Of a DNA stretch of 64,000 bases, positions 728 to 39,850 are shown in pieces (the first letter of the stretch is position 1; each line of letters opens with the position of its first letter). The position numbers and the translations under genes were made by a program. The notes under the pieces were generated by a model, which was given only the letters and a program-made list of their open reading frames with translations, had not been told where the DNA came from and ran no database searches. This stretch comes from Verrucomicrobiota bacterium (lineage in GTDB: Bacteria > Verrucomicrobiota > Verrucomicrobiia > JABWAM01): the NCBI GenBank assembly GCA_023269615.1, contig JAHFSY010000014.1, forward strand, positions 1 through 64,000, written 5' to 3'.

Positions 728-754
728 GGTAGGGATGGACCGCCGGGCCGTCCG
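728..754 (+). repeat. REP-like element family B, left flank of RAYT
   Basis: The element starts GGTAGGG and folds into a stem in which bases 6-11 (GGATGG) pair with bases 21-26 (CCGTCC) around ACCGCCGGG. It matches the reverse complement of 1341-1367 at 21 of 27 positions, and all three changed stem pairs keep pairing. Head GTAG plus hairpin is the REP layout that RAYTs recognise. Confidence 0.75.
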
Positions 755-833
755 CTGCCGTGCGATCCGCCTGACTCATTGCTGTTTGCCCTTGGCATGA
801 TCCAATCCCTTTGGTTCATGATCCTTTCCTGCC

Positions 834-1334
834 ATGAACTTGCCCCAACGCGAAGGACTTCCGCATGAGATGCCACTATGGGTGCGTCCTGAAGATGAAA
901 TTTACTTTCTGACCATCTGTTGTCAGATCCGTCGACAAAATCAGTTGTGCCACAAGCCAGTTGCTGCGGCGATTTTTGAGACCGTCGCCCATCGTCATGA
1001 ACGGGGGTTGTGGCATGCCCACCTGTTCTTACTGATGCCCGATCATGTTCACGCTCTGATTTCGTGTCCGACAGATGAAAAGGACATCCAGTCGCTAATT
1101 TTCCAGTGGAAAGAATGGACCGCAAAACAGATTGGCATCGGATGGCAGCGCGATTTTTTTGAGCATCGTCTGCGGCGAGAGGAAAGCATTCAGGAAAAGT
1201 CAGAATACATTCGACAGAATCCTGTGCGCGCTGGTTTGGTCCAGAACGCGGTAGATTGGTCCTTTCTCTGGATACCCAATCCGCAAGGGCAAGCCGGCCC
1301 ACATGCCAGGAACAAGCGTGCTCAACAAGCGTAA
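834..1334 (+). CDS. REP-associated tyrosine transposase (RAYT, IS200-like Y1 domain)
   Basis: A 166-residue single-domain HUH/Y1 transposase of the RAYT group, which cuts and joins single-stranded REP hairpins. The metal-binding HUH motif is seen as MPDHVHAL (about residues 64-71) and the catalytic tyrosine lies in EYIRQNPVRAGLV (about 123-135), the usual RAYT C-terminal signature. Length fits the family. There are no IS200 end sequences, and RAYTs are normally immobile single-copy genes. It is flanked at 728-754 and 1341-1367 by inverted GTAG-hairpin elements (see repeats). The gene is more AT-rich than its neighbours, which could reflect transfer. Start chosen at the first ATG; the spacing to the left element is 79 bases. 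Confidence 0.9.
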   Translation: MNLPQREGLPHEMPLWVRPEDEIYFLTICCQIRRQNQLCHKPVAAAIFETVAHRHERGLWHAHLFLLMPDHVHALISCPTDEKDIQSLIFQWKEWTAKQIGIGWQRDFFEHRLRREESIQEKSEYIRQNPVRAGLVQNAVDWSFLWIPNPQGQAGPHARNKRAQQA

Positions 1335-1340
1335 CGCAGC

Positions 1341-1367
1341 GGCGCGCCCGGCGGTCGCGCCCTACCT
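1341..1367 (-). repeat. REP-like element family B, right flank of RAYT
   Basis: Inverted partner of 728-754. Read on the minus strand it begins GGTAGGGCGCGACCGCCGGG. It fills the 27-base gap between the convergent RAYT and GT9 genes, and its TAG provides the GT9 stop codon at 1362-1364. Confidence 0.75.
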
Positions 1368-2492
1368 TTCGGCGGACGGCGACTTTCTCATCAGACCCTG
1401 GCGGCGGCATAGTGTCTCGAGTTTTGGCCAGACTTTTTCTGGCGTCAGCAGCGCCATGTTCACGCTCTTGTTGGGCTTCACCCCGGGCGGTGGCTCGAGT
1501 TGTGCCACCGGATTTTTGTCGCCGTAGCCGTGTGGTCCCACGCGCGACGCGGGGTTGTTGCAATGGATTAATGCCAGCGTGTCCACGCCCACCGCGAAAC
1601 CGAGATGCATGATGCCGGTGTCGGTGGAGACCAGGATTTTTGAAATCGAGAGCATCGCCGCAGCCTCCGCCAACGACAGTTCGCCGGCGAGATTGCGTGC
1701 GGATGGCAACTTTGCCGCCAGGGCGTCAGCTCTTGGGCGCAGATCCGGGCCGCCGAGCAGGATCAGTTCCACGTCGCACGCTTCCAGCAACCGCCGTCCC
1801 AACTCGGCATAATGCTCCACCGGCCAGTCGCGCCACGTCGAACGCTTTCCGCCTCCCACTTGAAACACAACGCGCGGTTTTTCGAAAACTCCAAGACGCT
1901 CCAGCTTCGGGCGCAACGCCGTACGCTCCTCCTCGCGCACTTCATACACCAATCGCTTGTCCTTTGTCTCCGCGCTGATGGTTCGCACGATCTCCAGGGT
2001 CTGTTCCACGCCATGGGTTTCGTCCCAAGCGGGAATTTCCACGGGGTGCGAAATCAGGAAACGGAAGCGCGTCATCACGGGGCAGCTCACCACGGCGTGA
2101 CGGTTCACCAGCCACGCCAGCGGCCAGAGATCGGGATCATTTCCGCGCAGCATCACCACCACGTCGGAACGGAGTTTCCGCAGTTCGAGTGCCAGCGTGA
2201 CAAAGCGGATGAACGATTTGTGATACAGGATCACGTCGTCCGCGAACGGATTGTGACGGGCCAGGGCGGCGCGGCGCCTGTGCGTCACCACGACCACGCG
2301 AGCCTTCGGATGGGATTCCTTGAGTGCACGGATCGCCACGCTGTCCGTCAGCGTATCGCCAATACCCGCCGCGCTGAAAACGAGGATGGTGTGGAATTCG
2401 CGTTTGTGCAAATCCGCAGGTGACGACGGAAACCATCCCGCGAGAAGGCGGAAGACCGTGTGGAACAGGTGGAATGCGATTCGGTTGATCAA
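1362..2492 (-). CDS. Glycosyltransferase family 9 (ADP-heptose:LPS heptosyltransferase type)
   Basis: A 376-residue GT-B enzyme, probably transferring heptose to lipopolysaccharide core at the inner face of the inner membrane. Evidence: N-terminal AAGIGDTLTDSVAIRALK (family motif near residues 42-60), the acceptor/donor-side FQVGGGKRSTWRDWPVEHY (about 210-228) and the nucleotide-sugar loop VSTDTGIMHLGFAVG (about 290-305). The window also encodes ADP-heptose synthesis steps (18399-19397, 19565-20098), which fits the role. The exact acceptor cannot be told. The last codons run into a family-B repeat, which supplies the stop, so the C-terminus (about 5 residues) may be repeat-derived. Confidence 0.85.
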   Translation of the reverse strand: MINRIAFHLFHTVFRLLAGWFPSSPADLHKREFHTILVFSAAGIGDTLTDSVAIRALKESHPKARVVVVTHRRRAALARHNPFADDVILYHKSFIRFVTLALELRKLRSDVVVMLRGNDPDLWPLAWLVNRHAVVSCPVMTRFRFLISHPVEIPAWDETHGVEQTLEIVRTISAETKDKRLVYEVREEERTALRPKLERLGVFEKPRVVFQVGGGKRSTWRDWPVEHYAELGRRLLEACDVELILLGGPDLRPRADALAAKLPSARNLAGELSLAEAAAMLSISKILVSTDTGIMHLGFAVGVDTLALIHCNNPASRVGPHGYGDKNPVAQLEPPPGVKPNKSVNMALLTPEKVWPKLETLCRRQGLMRKSPSAER

Positions 2493-2578
2493 GCGACGGA
2501 CTCTAGTCCATCGGCGGCGGGTGGTTCAAGACGACAGGTTGACGAATGCGCCCGGGCGGAGTACCGATTGGGAAAGCC

Positions 2579-3253
2579 ATGCCTTCTCCCCTCGAAACCA
2601 CGCTGCAGTACACGTTCCAGAATCCCAAGCTTCTGGACCAGGCGCTCACGCATTCCTCGCTCGGGCATGAGCAAAAAATGCGCCTTCCGCACAACGAGCG
2701 GATGGAGTTTCTCGGTGATGCGGTGCTCGCGCTTGTGATAGCCGAACACCTTTACCAGCTTCATCCCGACCTGCCCGAGGGGCATCTCACCAAGGTCCGC
2801 TCCCACCTGGTCAACCGTGCTGCGCTTGCCGAGATTGCCCAGTCGCTCGATCTCGGCCCGCACCTGCGTCTTGGAAGAGCTGAGGCCACCCAGGGTGGAC
2901 GACAGCGTGCTTCCAATCTCGCAAATGCGATGGAAGCCATCATCGCTGCAATTTTTCTCGACAGCGGATACAATGCAGCACGCGACCTGGTGCTGCGTCT
3001 GGTTGGACCACGACTCGGCAAGATCGCCGAAAATCCTGAACCTGAAAATGCCAAGGGACTCCTCCAGGAAAAACTCCACGCCGTCGGGAAGCAAGCCGTC
3101 TACCGCCTCGTGTCGGAAACCGGTCCCGCGCACCGGCGCGAGTTCGAGTCGGCCGTCGAAGTTGATGGCCAACCGATGGGTACTGGCACCGGTGCGACAA
3201 AAAAAGAGGCTGAGACCAGGGCCGCCGCATCCGCTTTGAAACTTCTCCCGTAA
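2579..3253 (+). CDS. rnc: Ribonuclease III
   Basis: Double-strand-specific endoribonuclease for rRNA and mRNA processing, cytoplasmic. The protein of 224 residues has an N-terminal RNase III domain with the signature NERMEFLGDAV (about 39-49), then the second conserved patch ASNLANAMEAIIAAIFLDSG (111-130), and a C-terminal dsRBD (about 150-224, ending GTGATKKEAETRAAASAL). The ATG at 2579 is preferred over 2546 because family members begin just before LxxTLQYTFxNPxLL. Oddity: the metal-binding Asp of the second patch (E. coli D114, in ADTVEA) is Asn here (N116), while the following Glu (E119) is kept. Confidence 0.95.
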   Translation: MPSPLETTLQYTFQNPKLLDQALTHSSLGHEQKMRLPHNERMEFLGDAVLALVIAEHLYQLHPDLPEGHLTKVRSHLVNRAALAEIAQSLDLGPHLRLGRAEATQGGRQRASNLANAMEAIIAAIFLDSGYNAARDLVLRLVGPRLGKIAENPEPENAKGLLQEKLHAVGKQAVYRLVSETGPAHRREFESAVEVDGQPMGTGTGATKKEAETRAAASALKLLP

Positions 3254-3280
3254 CGCGTCTCCGGAAATTCCAAACTCCGA

Positions 3281-3380
3281 GGTAGGGCGTGCTCGCCGAG
3301 CGCGCCGATGCGGTGGCTCGTGGAAAATAACGCGTGATTCTGATGGAGAACGACGGCGCGCTCGGCGAGCACGCCCTACC
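3281..3380. repeat. REP-like family B inverted pair
   Basis: Two 27-base arms, 3281-3307 and 3354-3380, are exact reverse complements. Each begins GGTAGGGCGTGCTCGCCGAG and is itself a hairpin. The pair (a BIME-like unit) sits between the convergent rnc and glnE genes, where it could also act as a bidirectional 3' stem. Confidence 0.85.
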
Positions 3381-3407
3381 ACCAGCAAGAAAAGATGCAT
3401 CTACATC

Positions 3408-6080
3408 TCATTTCGCCATCCACTGCTTCACTCGATCACGAATTCGCTTTCTTCGCGCCATCATCTCGGCTTCGAGCGCTGCCGCGTCCTTCAACCCAAG
3501 ATGTCTCGCGGGAATTTCCCACTCGGCGCGTGACGCGGGCATCTGCGACACGGGGGCGTTGTAGAATCGCCGCAGCACGCTTTCCAGCCCGCGCAACCAC
3601 CGATAATCCTCCACCAGGGATTCCATCTCCTTCGTCTTCCATCCGGCGATGACGGGCATGGCGCGCAACGTTTCGAGTGTGGAAGCTCGGCGCAATTCCG
3701 CATGACTGCACCCGTGTCGAAGCTGTTGCGCCTGCGCCAGGAACTCCACGTCCACCAGACCACCCGCGCCCGTCTTGAAATCACGCGCGGGATCGGACAA
3801 ATCCCCGCGCTCGTTTTCGATCCGTGCGCGCATCGCTTTCATCTCGCCCTGTTCGGCATCTGTCATCGGCCGCGCGTAAACCAGTTCATCCACCCATTTT
3901 AAAAAATCCGCGCCAAGCCGTGCATCGCCCGCGGCCACGCGCGCCCGCGTGAGCGATTGCCTCTCCCAAAATTGCGCCCGTTTCGCAAAGTAACTCCGGT
4001 ACGCTTCAAGCGAAATGGCCAGCGGCCCATCTTCGCCATCGGGTCGCAATCGCGCGTCCATGCGGAAGACGATCCCCTCGCCGCGTTCCTTGCCCATCAT
4101 CGCAAGCACCTTTGCGGCGGTCTCGGGAACGCCTCCGACAAAAATCACATCCAGGTCCGAGCCATAGGAAAGCTCGCGTCCGCCATATTTGCCCAGCGCG
4201 ATCACGCAAAAGCCCTTCGCGCCCGACGCCTGGTGCACCGCCTCGGCGAGGCAGACATCCGCCAGCAGGCTGATCTCTGCGCTGGTTTCCTCGGGCGACA
4301 CGGCCAGCCCAAGGATGTCGCGCAACTCGATGCGCAACAGCTCCGCGCGCTGAAAATGACGGAGGCGCGCCTCGGGGCTCCCGGAAGTTTCTGCTGCAAG
4401 ATTCACTTCCATCATTCCGCGGTCGTGCTGCGCGGAGAGAAGTCCCTCGAAGGCGATGGACTCCAGGAGTCCGGGTTGGTGGACGATGATGTCCGTGAGA
4501 AAAAAACTGTGGTCAAACAGCTTGAAGAGCAGCTCGAGCGTTTTCGGATTGGACGCCAGCAGTTCGTACAGCGCCGCGCGCGAGCCGTACGCTTCGATGA
4601 AGCGTTCGAATTGCTGCAGCGCGAAATCCGGGCGCGCCAGCGACGGCGAGATTTTAAAAATGTGCGGAGTAAGCTGGCTGAAGAAGCCTCTCGTGCGCTG
4701 GGAGACGTGCGCGTATTCGGGGCCGAGGGCGAGCGTCCTGAGCGTGGCCGCCGCCTTTTCTGCGTCGCGAAATCCCGCTCGCAGCAAAAAGTCGTCACGC
4801 TCCCGCGAGGGCGTTTCCCAGTCGGGAGGGGCTTCCAGTTCACCGCCTTCCCTGGACTGGACGATTCTCTCGAAAAACGAATGCACGCGCGCAGCGTGTT
4901 GTTTCCATTCCTTTTCAAATGCCGCGTGCGTCCGGAAGCCCAGCCCCCGGGCGATCGCGGTCTGCTCCGCGCGGTCTTCCGGCACCACGTGGGTCTGACG
5001 GTCCTCCCGCATCTGCAGGCGGTGCTCGAGCCGGCGCAGGAAAACGTACGCACGCGTGAGTTCCGCCGCGTCGGTCGCGCCGAGAAGGTCGAGACGGTGC
5101 AACACTTGCAGCGACTTGAGCGTGCCGCGCTCCTGGGAGAAGGCGTTGCGCGAACCGTGCAGCAGCTGGAGCGCCTGCACGCCGAACTCGATTTCACGGA
5201 TGCCGCCGCGCCCCAGCTTCACGTGCCGCTCAAGGCCGCCCGCCTTGAGAATCTCCGCCTCGATGCGCGACTTGATCTGGTAAATCTCGTCCAGCGCCGA
5301 CGGCGGGAGATGCTTCGGGAAACAAAATGGTTGCAGGTGCTGGGTAAACTCGTATCCCAGCTCGGCATCGCCTGCCACAAGGCGCGCCTTCTGCAGTGCC
5401 ATGCGCTCCCACACCTCCCCGAATGCGGCATAGTAGTTTTCGTAGCTCTCGAGCGACCGCGTGATCGGCCCGGAGTTTCCCTCCGGGCGCAGGCGCAGGT
5501 CCACGCGGAAGAGGCCCCCCTCCGCCCCGCTGCCGCGAAATCCCTGCACCAGTGCCCCGGCCACGCGCTTGAAAAAATCATGGTGCGTGATCCGTCCCAC
5601 GCTTCCCTCCCCGGAGTAGGCGAAGATCAGGTCAATGTCCGAGCTGTAGTTGAGTTCCTGCCCGCCGAGCTTGCCCATGCCAAAGACGGCGAACTGCGCG
5701 TCGGGTTTTCCATGGCGCGCAACCATGTCGCGATGGCAGGCGTCGAGCCCGCGTTGCAGGCAGTAGTCGGCGAGCGCGGAAAGCTCTGACACGATCTCCT
5801 CAAGCGGCGCGGCGTCCGTGAGGTCTCGCACGGTGATGCGCAGCATCTCGCGGCGTTTCACAAGGCGCAGTTGGGAAAAGGTTGCGTCCACGCCCAGCCC
5901 CCCCCAGTCCCTCGCGCGCCACTCCCCTTCGAGGCGGCGCACGGAACGCGGCTGCGAAAGCGGCCCCTGTTCCAGCAGCCACGCCAGGTCGTCGGGATGC
6001 GACTTCAACTGGCGGGTGCAGAATGGAGAGTGCTTTTCCAGCAGGGCGCGGATTCGGGAGGCTGTGTGAGTTGCTTTCAA
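3408..6080 (-). CDS. glnE: Glutamine synthetase adenylyltransferase / deadenylylase
   Basis: Bifunctional regulator that adds AMP to, and removes it from, glutamine synthetase in response to PII. About 890 residues with two nucleotidyltransferase domains in tandem: the first shows GMGKLGGQELNYSSDIDLIF, the second ALGKYGGRELSYGSDLDVIF; each is followed by its helical domain with the G-R-G-G-I-REIEF and GAGGLVDVEFLAQ motifs. Start is uncertain: the open frame runs on to 6233 through the divergent surA-like gene. I place it at TTG 6080, the only plausible initiator between the family-conserved start of homology and the neighbour at 6114. A 610-codon antisense frame exists but is a GC-rich shadow. 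Confidence 0.93.
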   Translation of the reverse strand: MKATHTASRIRALLEKHSPFCTRQLKSHPDDLAWLLEQGPLSQPRSVRRLEGEWRARDWGGLGVDATFSQLRLVKRREMLRITVRDLTDAAPLEEIVSELSALADYCLQRGLDACHRDMVARHGKPDAQFAVFGMGKLGGQELNYSSDIDLIFAYSGEGSVGRITHHDFFKRVAGALVQGFRGSGAEGGLFRVDLRLRPEGNSGPITRSLESYENYYAAFGEVWERMALQKARLVAGDAELGYEFTQHLQPFCFPKHLPPSALDEIYQIKSRIEAEILKAGGLERHVKLGRGGIREIEFGVQALQLLHGSRNAFSQERGTLKSLQVLHRLDLLGATDAAELTRAYVFLRRLEHRLQMREDRQTHVVPEDRAEQTAIARGLGFRTHAAFEKEWKQHAARVHSFFERIVQSREGGELEAPPDWETPSRERDDFLLRAGFRDAEKAAATLRTLALGPEYAHVSQRTRGFFSQLTPHIFKISPSLARPDFALQQFERFIEAYGSRAALYELLASNPKTLELLFKLFDHSFFLTDIIVHQPGLLESIAFEGLLSAQHDRGMMEVNLAAETSGSPEARLRHFQRAELLRIELRDILGLAVSPEETSAEISLLADVCLAEAVHQASGAKGFCVIALGKYGGRELSYGSDLDVIFVGGVPETAAKVLAMMGKERGEGIVFRMDARLRPDGEDGPLAISLEAYRSYFAKRAQFWERQSLTRARVAAGDARLGADFLKWVDELVYARPMTDAEQGEMKAMRARIENERGDLSDPARDFKTGAGGLVDVEFLAQAQQLRHGCSHAELRRASTLETLRAMPVIAGWKTKEMESLVEDYRWLRGLESVLRRFYNAPVSQMPASRAEWEIPARHLGLKDAAALEAEMMARRKRIRDRVKQWMAK

Positions 6081-6113
6081 TTTAGGATTGAGGACGTGCT
6101 GGTTTGTGGCAAT

Positions 6114-7130
6114 ATGAACGGGATGCACTCTACGTGTGGAGCAAAAAAGGGAAGGATCTTCCTTCTCATGGCGGTCGCCGCGGCGTTTCTGGCTGCGTTT
6201 CCATCCGCGCGCGGGGACCTCGTGGATGGGCACCTCGTGGACGGCATTGCCGCCGTGGTCAATGAGGACATCATCACCTTCACCGACGTGAAAAACGCCA
6301 TCGGGTCAACCGACGAGGCGTTGCGAAGGAGCTATGCCTCCGATGATCCCGTGCTTGCCGAGAAGATCCGCGAGCTTCGCAAGGACGCCCTTGACCAGTT
6401 GATTGAACGCCGCCTCATCATCCAGCAATTCAACCTCAAGGGCGGCAAGGTGCCGGACAGCTACGTCGAGGAGGACATCCAGAACACGATTGACGAGCAG
6501 TACGGGCGCGACCGCAGCGTTTTCATCAAGACCCTTGAAGCGCTTGGCACAAACCTCCAGTCGTTCAAGGATCGCGTGCGCGACAAGATCATTGTTCGCT
6601 ACATGCAAAAAACCTCCGTCAACGACGAAATCCTCATCTCGCCCTACAAGATTGAAAAGTATTACCGCGAGCACGTAAAGGATTTCGAGGAGGGCGAGAA
6701 GGTCAAGATGCGCATGATCTACATCTCAAAGGGTAAAAATCCCGCCGAGGCTGACAGTAACCGCAGCCTGGCGCAGGAGGTGCTTGTGAAGGTGGCGACG
6801 GGTTCTGACTTCGTCACGATGGCCAACGTCTATTCCGAGGGGCCCGAAAAGAAGGAAGGCGGCGAGCTTGGCTTTATCAGCCGGGAAACCCTGCGCGAGG
6901 AATTGCGCGATGCAGCCTTCTCTCTCAAGCCCGGGTCCAACAGCAAGGTCATCGAAACCAGCGATGGCTTCTACATCCTGCTCATCGAGGAGAAAAAGCC
7001 GGCCAAGGTCACGACCATGGTGGAGGCGCGCGACCTTGTGGAACGCCTCCTCATGCAGGCGGAACGCGAGCAACTCCAAAAACACTGGATCCGGTCTCTC
7101 AAGCGCAAGGCTTACATCCGGATGTATTGA
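6114..7130 (+). CDS. SurA-like periplasmic peptidyl-prolyl isomerase / chaperone
   Basis: Predicted to escort outer-membrane proteins through the periplasm. A signal peptide is visible (basic start, then LLMAVAAAFLAAFPSARG, to about residue 38). It is followed by a SurA-N-type helical domain (VDGIAAVVNEDIITFTDV, DALDQLIERRLIIQQF) and one parvulin PPIC domain (about 210-310; MRMIYISKG, FVTMANVYSEGPEKKEGGELGF, GFYILLIEEKKP). E. coli SurA has two parvulin domains; only one is seen here. It is divergent from glnE with a 33-base gap between the chosen starts, so their promoters must overlap coding DNA. ATG 6114 and 6123 are both possible. Confidence 0.85.
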   Translation: MNGMHSTCGAKKGRIFLLMAVAAAFLAAFPSARGDLVDGHLVDGIAAVVNEDIITFTDVKNAIGSTDEALRRSYASDDPVLAEKIRELRKDALDQLIERRLIIQQFNLKGGKVPDSYVEEDIQNTIDEQYGRDRSVFIKTLEALGTNLQSFKDRVRDKIIVRYMQKTSVNDEILISPYKIEKYYREHVKDFEEGEKVKMRMIYISKGKNPAEADSNRSLAQEVLVKVATGSDFVTMANVYSEGPEKKEGGELGFISRETLREELRDAAFSLKPGSNSKVIETSDGFYILLIEEKKPAKVTTMVEARDLVERLLMQAEREQLQKHWIRSLKRKAYIRMY

Positions 7131-39671: not shown

Positions 39672-39698
39672 GGTAGGGCGCGCTCGCCGAGCGCGCCG
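39672..39698 (+). repeat. REP-like family B element (single)
   Basis: GGTAGGGCGCGCTCGCCGAG then CGCGCCG: nearly identical to the left arm at 3281-3307, including the upstream CCGA. Lies 19 bases after the mutase stop. Confidence 0.75.
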
Positions 39699-39776
39699 TG
39701 AGCGGGCTTGCAGGCTGGACGGAAAGGGGGGTGGCAATTTGCCCCCTCCCTTTGAGAAGCTTTGTCTTTTTCATTT

Positions 39777-39850
39777 TGTAGGAGCCGTTGCCAACGGCGA
39801 CCGGGCGTGATGGGTCCGTGTGGAGATCGCCGTTGGCAACGGCTCCTACA
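39777..39850. repeat. REP-like family A inverted pair
   Basis: Left unit starts TGTAGGAGCCGTTGCCAACG; the right unit is its reverse complement ending GGCTCCTACA. The two outer arms match over about 25 bases. Lies between the mutase operon and padR, and could act as a 3' stem for the operon. Confidence 0.85.

Follow-up and report, generated by a model that had tools for sequence, protein, structure and literature searches.

What binds a transposase gene to the two inverted hairpins that bracket it, and why do these hairpins, alike in fold, differ in the letters of their stems? The question is raised by a locus in a 64,000-nt stretch of DNA, here called the window, which forms part of contig C29 in the 4.48-Mb draft genome of a Verrucomicrobiota bacterium. 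The locus is very probably a REPtron, in which a single-copy RAYT gene is enclosed by the halves of its own REPIN and would mobilise or maintain REPINs in trans. The coordinates of the features discussed below are collected in Table 1.

The open reading frame at 834-1334 scores 96.6 bits against the NCBIfam model REP_Tyr_transpos (NF047646), above the cutoff of 80, while the IS200 model gives 17.5 bits, well under its cutoff of 55, and Pfam Y1_Tnp (PF01797) gives 21.9 bits, slightly below its cutoff of 23. A search of the PDB with the protein returned a sole match, TnpAREP (4er8, E 6e-8). The active-site and signature residues are intact, with the HUH motif present as H71-V-H73 together with the catalytic Tyr125, N129, and W104-Q105-R114, and their spacing agrees with that of W94/Q95/R104/Y115/N119 in E. 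coli TnpAREP, the residues named in PMC6006769 and PMC8266576. H71, Y125, N129, W104, Q105, and R114 are invariant in the alignment of relatives, H73 being the exception. In one relative (L110, G047:C208:87-530), MPDHVN stands in place of the HUH motif and the inward GTAG hairpins are still there. The family score and the intact HUH, Tyr, and W-Q-R residues bear out the preliminary description of this DNA, which had recognised a RAYT gene encoding an HUH transposase, and by family score the protein is a RAYT, a “tamed” or domesticated HUH/Tyr1 transposase. The gene is single-copy in the 4.48-Mb draft assembly and not self-amplifying; three more RAYT-like genes lie on contigs C5, C18, and C107, the closest of them 50% identical to the window RAYT. 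With the IS200 model below its cutoff and only one copy in the genome, the gene does not have the properties of an autonomous multi-copy IS200/IS605 insertion sequence. A larger Y1-type transposase gene of 329 aa was also observed in the genome (L036, G000:C107:81922), its start region duplicated as a direct repeat directly upstream.

Table 1. Positions in the window of the RAYT gene, its flanking REPs, and the second-family repeats.
Feature	Position	Strand	Description or basis
5' REP, A-type	728..753	+	GGTAG head + GG-ATGG-A.G-CC-[GCC]-GG-CCGT-CC stem-loop; points into RAYT
GCTGC, equal to left half of REPIN linker (G-CTGC|GCAGC)	754..758	+	compared with 62-bp REPINs
RAYT / TnpAREP gene	834..1334	+	166 aa; family score, 4er8 match, alignment
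GCAGC, equal to right half of REPIN linker	1336..1340	+	compared with 62-bp REPINs
3' REP, C-type	1341..1366	-	GGTAG head + GG-CGCG-A.G-CC-[GCC]-GG-CGCG-CC; points into RAYT
Left MITE arm remnant, GCGTCTCCGGAAATTCCAAACTCCGA	3255..3280	+	compared with arm consensus
REPIN of second family (CGTGCTCGCCGAGCGCG), 100 bp	3281..3380	.	between ORFs 2546-3253 (+) and 3408-6233 (-)
Right MITE arm remnant, ACCAGCAAGA	3381-3390		compared with arm consensus
Single REP, second family	39672..39697	+	pattern search

The RAYT gene is flanked on both sides by inverted GTAG REPs. Read from position 728, the left flank is GGTAGGGATGGACCGCCGGGCCGTCCG; the right flank, read on the reverse strand from 1366, is GGTAGGGCGCGACCGCCGGGCGCGCCG. 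The inverted match first reported for the two flanks, 21 of 27 positions, was reproduced, and the differences fall at exactly six positions (8, 9, 10, 22, 23, and 24). Positions 8-10 pair with 22-24, and the differences form the three paired changes that had been claimed: A-T to C-G at 8/24, T.G to G-C at 9/23, and G-C to C-G at 10/22. The hairpins read inward and are 26 nt each, GGTAGGGATGGACCGCCGGGCCGTCC on the left (728-753) and GGTAGGGCGCGACCGCCGGGCGCGCC on the right (1366-1341, reverse strand); the interval originally given, 728-1367, should end at 1366. Each flank folds alone, with a GGTAG head, a 9-position stem containing one A.G mismatch, and a GCC loop. Both the head GGTAGGG and the loop are constant between the flanks, as proposed, although the loop had been drawn too wide: the region ACCGCCGGG so named comprises the A.G mismatch, two C-G pairs, and a 3-nt GCC loop. 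A reading of the stem with a bulged A and a 4-nt loop was dropped, since the relatives show the A.G mismatch and the 3-nt GCC loop. The TAG in the GGTAG head of the right REP (1364-1362, minus strand) is also the stop codon of a glycosyltransferase family 9 ORF (1362-2492, minus strand), and the end of this REP thus overlaps the 3' end of the glycosyltransferase gene.

A profile of nine RAYTs was searched against 84,980 species genomes, yielding 80 loci, nearly all in Verrucomicrobiota. A hairpin search placed inward GTAG hairpins on both sides of 44 of these 80 relatives and on one side of another 25, so that 69/80 have at least one; the flanks contain 144 hairpins in total, compared with 4 in all when the flanks are shuffled. 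Flanking hairpins, whose absence around orthologous RAYTs was to have counted against the proposal, are thus present. The covariation set consisted of 58 distinct REPs, picked as hairpins. Of their cells 96.0% are paired (61.8% shuffled), and covariation scores 0.793, against 0.161 after shuffling; two-sided changes occur at all nine stem pairs, slid controls being 34-46% paired. Seventeen of the 58 lack pairing at stem pair 12/20 and form the mismatch subset that includes the window REPs. The unbiased covariation figure comes from elements selected by the head only (GGTAGGG, pairing not required): their inner seven stem pairs are 82% paired, against a mean of 51% and a maximum of 56% after the 3' arms have been reassigned among the elements. 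Judged by these alignments, the stems are maintained by compensatory change, in keeping with the original claim that selection has kept the fold. The covariance model suggested as a check adds that REP hits accompany the gene: they occur in 23 of the 34 related genomes that have a RAYT match and in 2 of the 23 that have none (Fisher p 9e-6, with kinship ignored and 135 candidates scored per genome).

The same data speak to the idea that the hairpins serve in transcription termination or mRNA stability and stand near the RAYT gene only incidentally. They are indeed stable hairpins that lie between genes and close to gene ends, which can also be true of REPs elsewhere, but the motif has no T-run, its matches track the presence of a RAYT, and in many genomes the RAYT relatives are flanked by inward GTAG hairpins whose stems vary while the head stays constant. 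We consider this explanation highly improbable.

The distribution of the motif was determined by searching the 4.48-Mb genome with the pattern GGTAGGGN{3,8}CCGCCGGG, the reversed pattern serving as control; all genome counts given here come from searches by pattern, by model, or by region. The pattern matched at 57+64 = 121 sites and the reversed pattern at 0+0, which excludes chance for the REP motif and establishes the genome-wide excess that had been set beforehand as a test. Nearly all 121 motifs sit in inverted pairs of exactly 62 bp, making dozens of units with the consensus GGTAGGGACGGACCGCCGGGCCGTCCG-YTNCGCARC-GGCGCGCCCGGCGGTCGCGCCCTACC. Two inverted REPs thus constitute a repeated unit in many copies, a REPIN. 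Two REP types run through the family, A (ACGG/CCGT) and C (CGCG/CGCG), and every one of the 44 REPIN pairs fully read joins an A to a C, with no homotypic pair (0/44). The RAYT locus keeps the order of the REPIN, with the A-type REP upstream of the gene and the C-type REP downstream; the bases immediately inside the two hairpins, GCTGC and GCAGC, are the halves of the REPIN linker, indicating that the RAYT gene sits at the linker position.

In this genome 48 A-type and 48 C-type REPs were read. Forty-one of the A-type copies are identical to the consensus and three carry a compensated change, ACGG/CCGT to ACAG/CTGT, while the A.G mismatch is kept in 96/96 REPs of this first family. The left REP of the window, with ATGG in its stem, departs from the ACGG of the genomic A-type, a point against the REPtron reading; its wobble T is private to the window copy, the 47 other A-type REPs read having C at that position. 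The stem differences between the flanks are a fixed genome-wide A/C heterodimer and not drift at the RAYT locus. The earlier interpretation holds as regards the RAYT-REP partnership, with one correction: the paired changes mark two fixed REP types. These differences might nonetheless be neutral accidents of one heterotypic founder that was copied often, with heterotypy itself unselected. All REPINs of the first family do share one A+C arrangement and a near-identical sequence, as founder copies would; against this, unlike flanks recur with other sequences, in 43 of the 48 RAYT relatives that have a GGTAGGG head on both sides (identical in 5/48; relatedness uncorrected). A purely neutral origin is in our judgment plausible but less likely than not.

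Binding of single-stranded REPs by known TnpAREP proteins involves the GTAG and, in E. coli, a stem mismatch or, in S. maltophilia, the loop; the cut is then made at a nearby CT (PMC8266576). The anatomy of the window locus fits this mode of action, and we infer recognition and cutting of the same kind. When the DNA becomes single-stranded, each REP would fold as a GTAG plus a hairpin in which the A.G mismatch and the GCC loop are conserved. The RAYT would bind the REP through GTAG, mismatch, and loop and cut nearby, and such cutting would mobilise or maintain REPINs in trans. The paired REPs of a REPIN can alternatively anneal to one another, and the resulting long hairpin, spanning the entire REPIN, has been suggested as unlikely to be recognised (PMC3116915). 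Unlike stems in the two REPs would leave the small hairpins paired while breaking this competing long hairpin, which would explain selection on the fold and not on the letters.

Folding energies computed with DNA parameters give −32.3 kcal/mol for the long hairpin of the real A-C REPIN, compared with −44.9 for A-A and −49.1 for C-C, whereas the two-hairpin form is about unchanged across the pairings (−14 to −19 kcal/mol). The long hairpin is nevertheless the most stable fold even of heterotypic REPINs; with that hairpin weakened and the two-hairpin form stable, heterotypy halves the handicap but does not remove it. On the basis of these calculations, heterotypy may have been selected because it favours the small hairpins over the long one. 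Counting against such a benefit, a second REP family, in which many pairs join REPs of the same or almost the same sequence, is abundant too. In the literature the preference for heterodimers is described as having no obvious explanation, and a related benefit, escape from SbcCD-type clearance, has been proposed (PMC3733652).

The second family (CGTGCTCGCCGAGCGCG) has 187 matches in the genome, against 0 in the control, and its REP corresponds to the sequences that flank the RAYT on contig C5. A third REP arrangement consists of tail-to-tail pairs that face outward (CGCTTTCGCCGAAAGCG / CGTGCTCGCCGAGCGCG), with starts ~45 bp apart (G000:C28, C31, C33, C48, and C75). A palindromic repeat, TGTAGGAGCCGCTG..CAGCGGCGACC with its inverse, occurs in the window at 39776-39840 and in locus L083 around 1380-1490, where it apparently replaced part of a REPIN.

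Most REPINs lie within a larger element of ~120 bp, TNA-GAGCGTGTCCGGAAA...TCGA-(62 bp)-ACCAGCAAGGCAACTTACTTTCCGGACACGCTC-TNA. Both TIRs (GAGCGTGTCCGGAAA, no more than 3 mismatches in either) were found in 19 copies. In 10 of these the 3-bp flanks are identical (mostly TNA), whereas 2.6 would be expected and 10,000 permutations never gave more than 9; the outer arms of the REPINs thus have the TIR pair and target duplication of an IS5-like MITE. In G004, a genome of the same family, there are elements with the same TIR that lack an internal REP, and three of these elements show paired ends and a TNA duplication; this identifies the arms as a MITE in its own right. Second-family REPINs bear remnants of the same arms (TCCGA on the left, ACCAGCAAG on the right, with a GAGCGTGTT..GAAA-like left end in some copies), and REPINs of both families are found in MITE arms (window 3255-3390; loci L019, L038, L060, L063, and others). 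Neither of the RAYT loci examined, on C29 and C5, has MITE arms around it; given this and the REPIN-free copies in G004, the notion that the arms are the outer ends of a RAYT transposon was rejected. Repeated insertion of REPINs into pre-existing MITEs is disfavoured, since the exact TIR hits in this genome adjoin a REPIN or a REPIN remnant and include no empty MITE. Searching the literature for REPINs nested in MITEs turned up no relevant report, which is weak evidence. The nested packaging is the new part, the partnership of RAYT and REPIN being already known.

The arms are strongly eroded and decay faster than the REPIN core. Conservation is 1.88 bits per position in the core and 0.34 and 0.45 in the arms, a comparison in which ascertainment favours the core; it does so less at equal stringency (15 fixed bases, no mismatch), where 121 exact REP motifs compare with 21 exact TIRs. 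Such an element, a DDE-type MITE with TIR GAGCGTGTCCGGAAA and 3-bp TNA duplications, could have been what mainly spread the REPINs as its cargo, the RAYT only maintaining or tolerating the core. The two-TIR copies with their excess of identical flanks, the exact TIRs adjoining REPINs, and the REPIN-free elements of G004 all argue for such spread, whereas the much better kept core, the occurrence of REPINs with few or no arm traces, and the position of the RAYT itself outside the arms argue against it. So does the search for a transposase: neither a DDE_Tnp_1 nor a DUF4096 transposase turned up in this genome, nor did an autonomous partner with the same TIR, the DUF4096 element of G004 being without a close TIR match. 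We regard spread mainly by the MITE as a serious possibility that falls just short of probable. It is compatible with the partnership of RAYT and REP and changes how the copies reached their places. Most likely, REPINs reached many sites as cargo of the MITE, and the REPIN core has survived longer than the MITE around it, maintained perhaps by RAYT activity, perhaps by host selection. The fuller scheme, in which a DDE-type MITE chassis spread at least two REPIN families belonging to two RAYTs, the DDE transposase was then lost, the RAYT-recognised core was kept, and the chassis decays, is put forward tentatively, as having slightly less than an even chance of being right.

How REPINs move and why heterodimers are frequent are open questions, for which this genome, with one RAYT and fixed A and C REPs, offers a clean case. 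The decaying MITE frame is a built-in yardstick of how strongly the REPIN core is kept, and the help that heterotypy may give to small-hairpin formation becomes directly testable with A-C, A-A, and C-C substrates. Specialists will be interested in the fixed A+C pairing at gene and REPINs and in the nesting within a MITE.

The reading as a REPtron places the locus beside the RAYT systems of E. coli (Ec), S. maltophilia (Sm), and Marinomonas (Ma/Mb), in which an HUH-Tyr protein has inverted GTAG hairpins on both sides and a single-copy gene is accompanied by many REPs in the genome (PMC8266576, PMC3733652). The mid-stem mismatch is shared with E. coli REPs and the 3-nt loop starting with G with those of S. 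maltophilia. Unlike known REPtrons, the present one has an extended GGTAGGG head and combines a conserved A.G mismatch with a GCC loop, and its protein family has relatives nearly all of which are Verrucomicrobiota. As in IS5-family-like MITEs, the outer arms have a TIR pair and a 3-bp TNA duplication, although here a REPIN occupies a fixed place inside and no matching transposase was found in the same genome. Like the REPINs of Pseudomonas (PMC3116915), the repeated unit consists of two inverted REPs and a linker, but it is always A+C heterotypic, has a very short linker, and lies inside MITE arms. Close parallels to this heterotypy are the GTAG heterodimers GTAG-3 of Enterobacteriaceae and GTAG-24 of P. 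aeruginosa, head-to-head dimers with unlike stems; a preference for GTAG heterodimers was already noted there, and the verrucomicrobium O. terrae was already known as rich in GTAG repeats (PMC3733652). Compared with those heterodimers and the O. terrae families, heterotypy is found here at the RAYT locus and in the REPINs alike.
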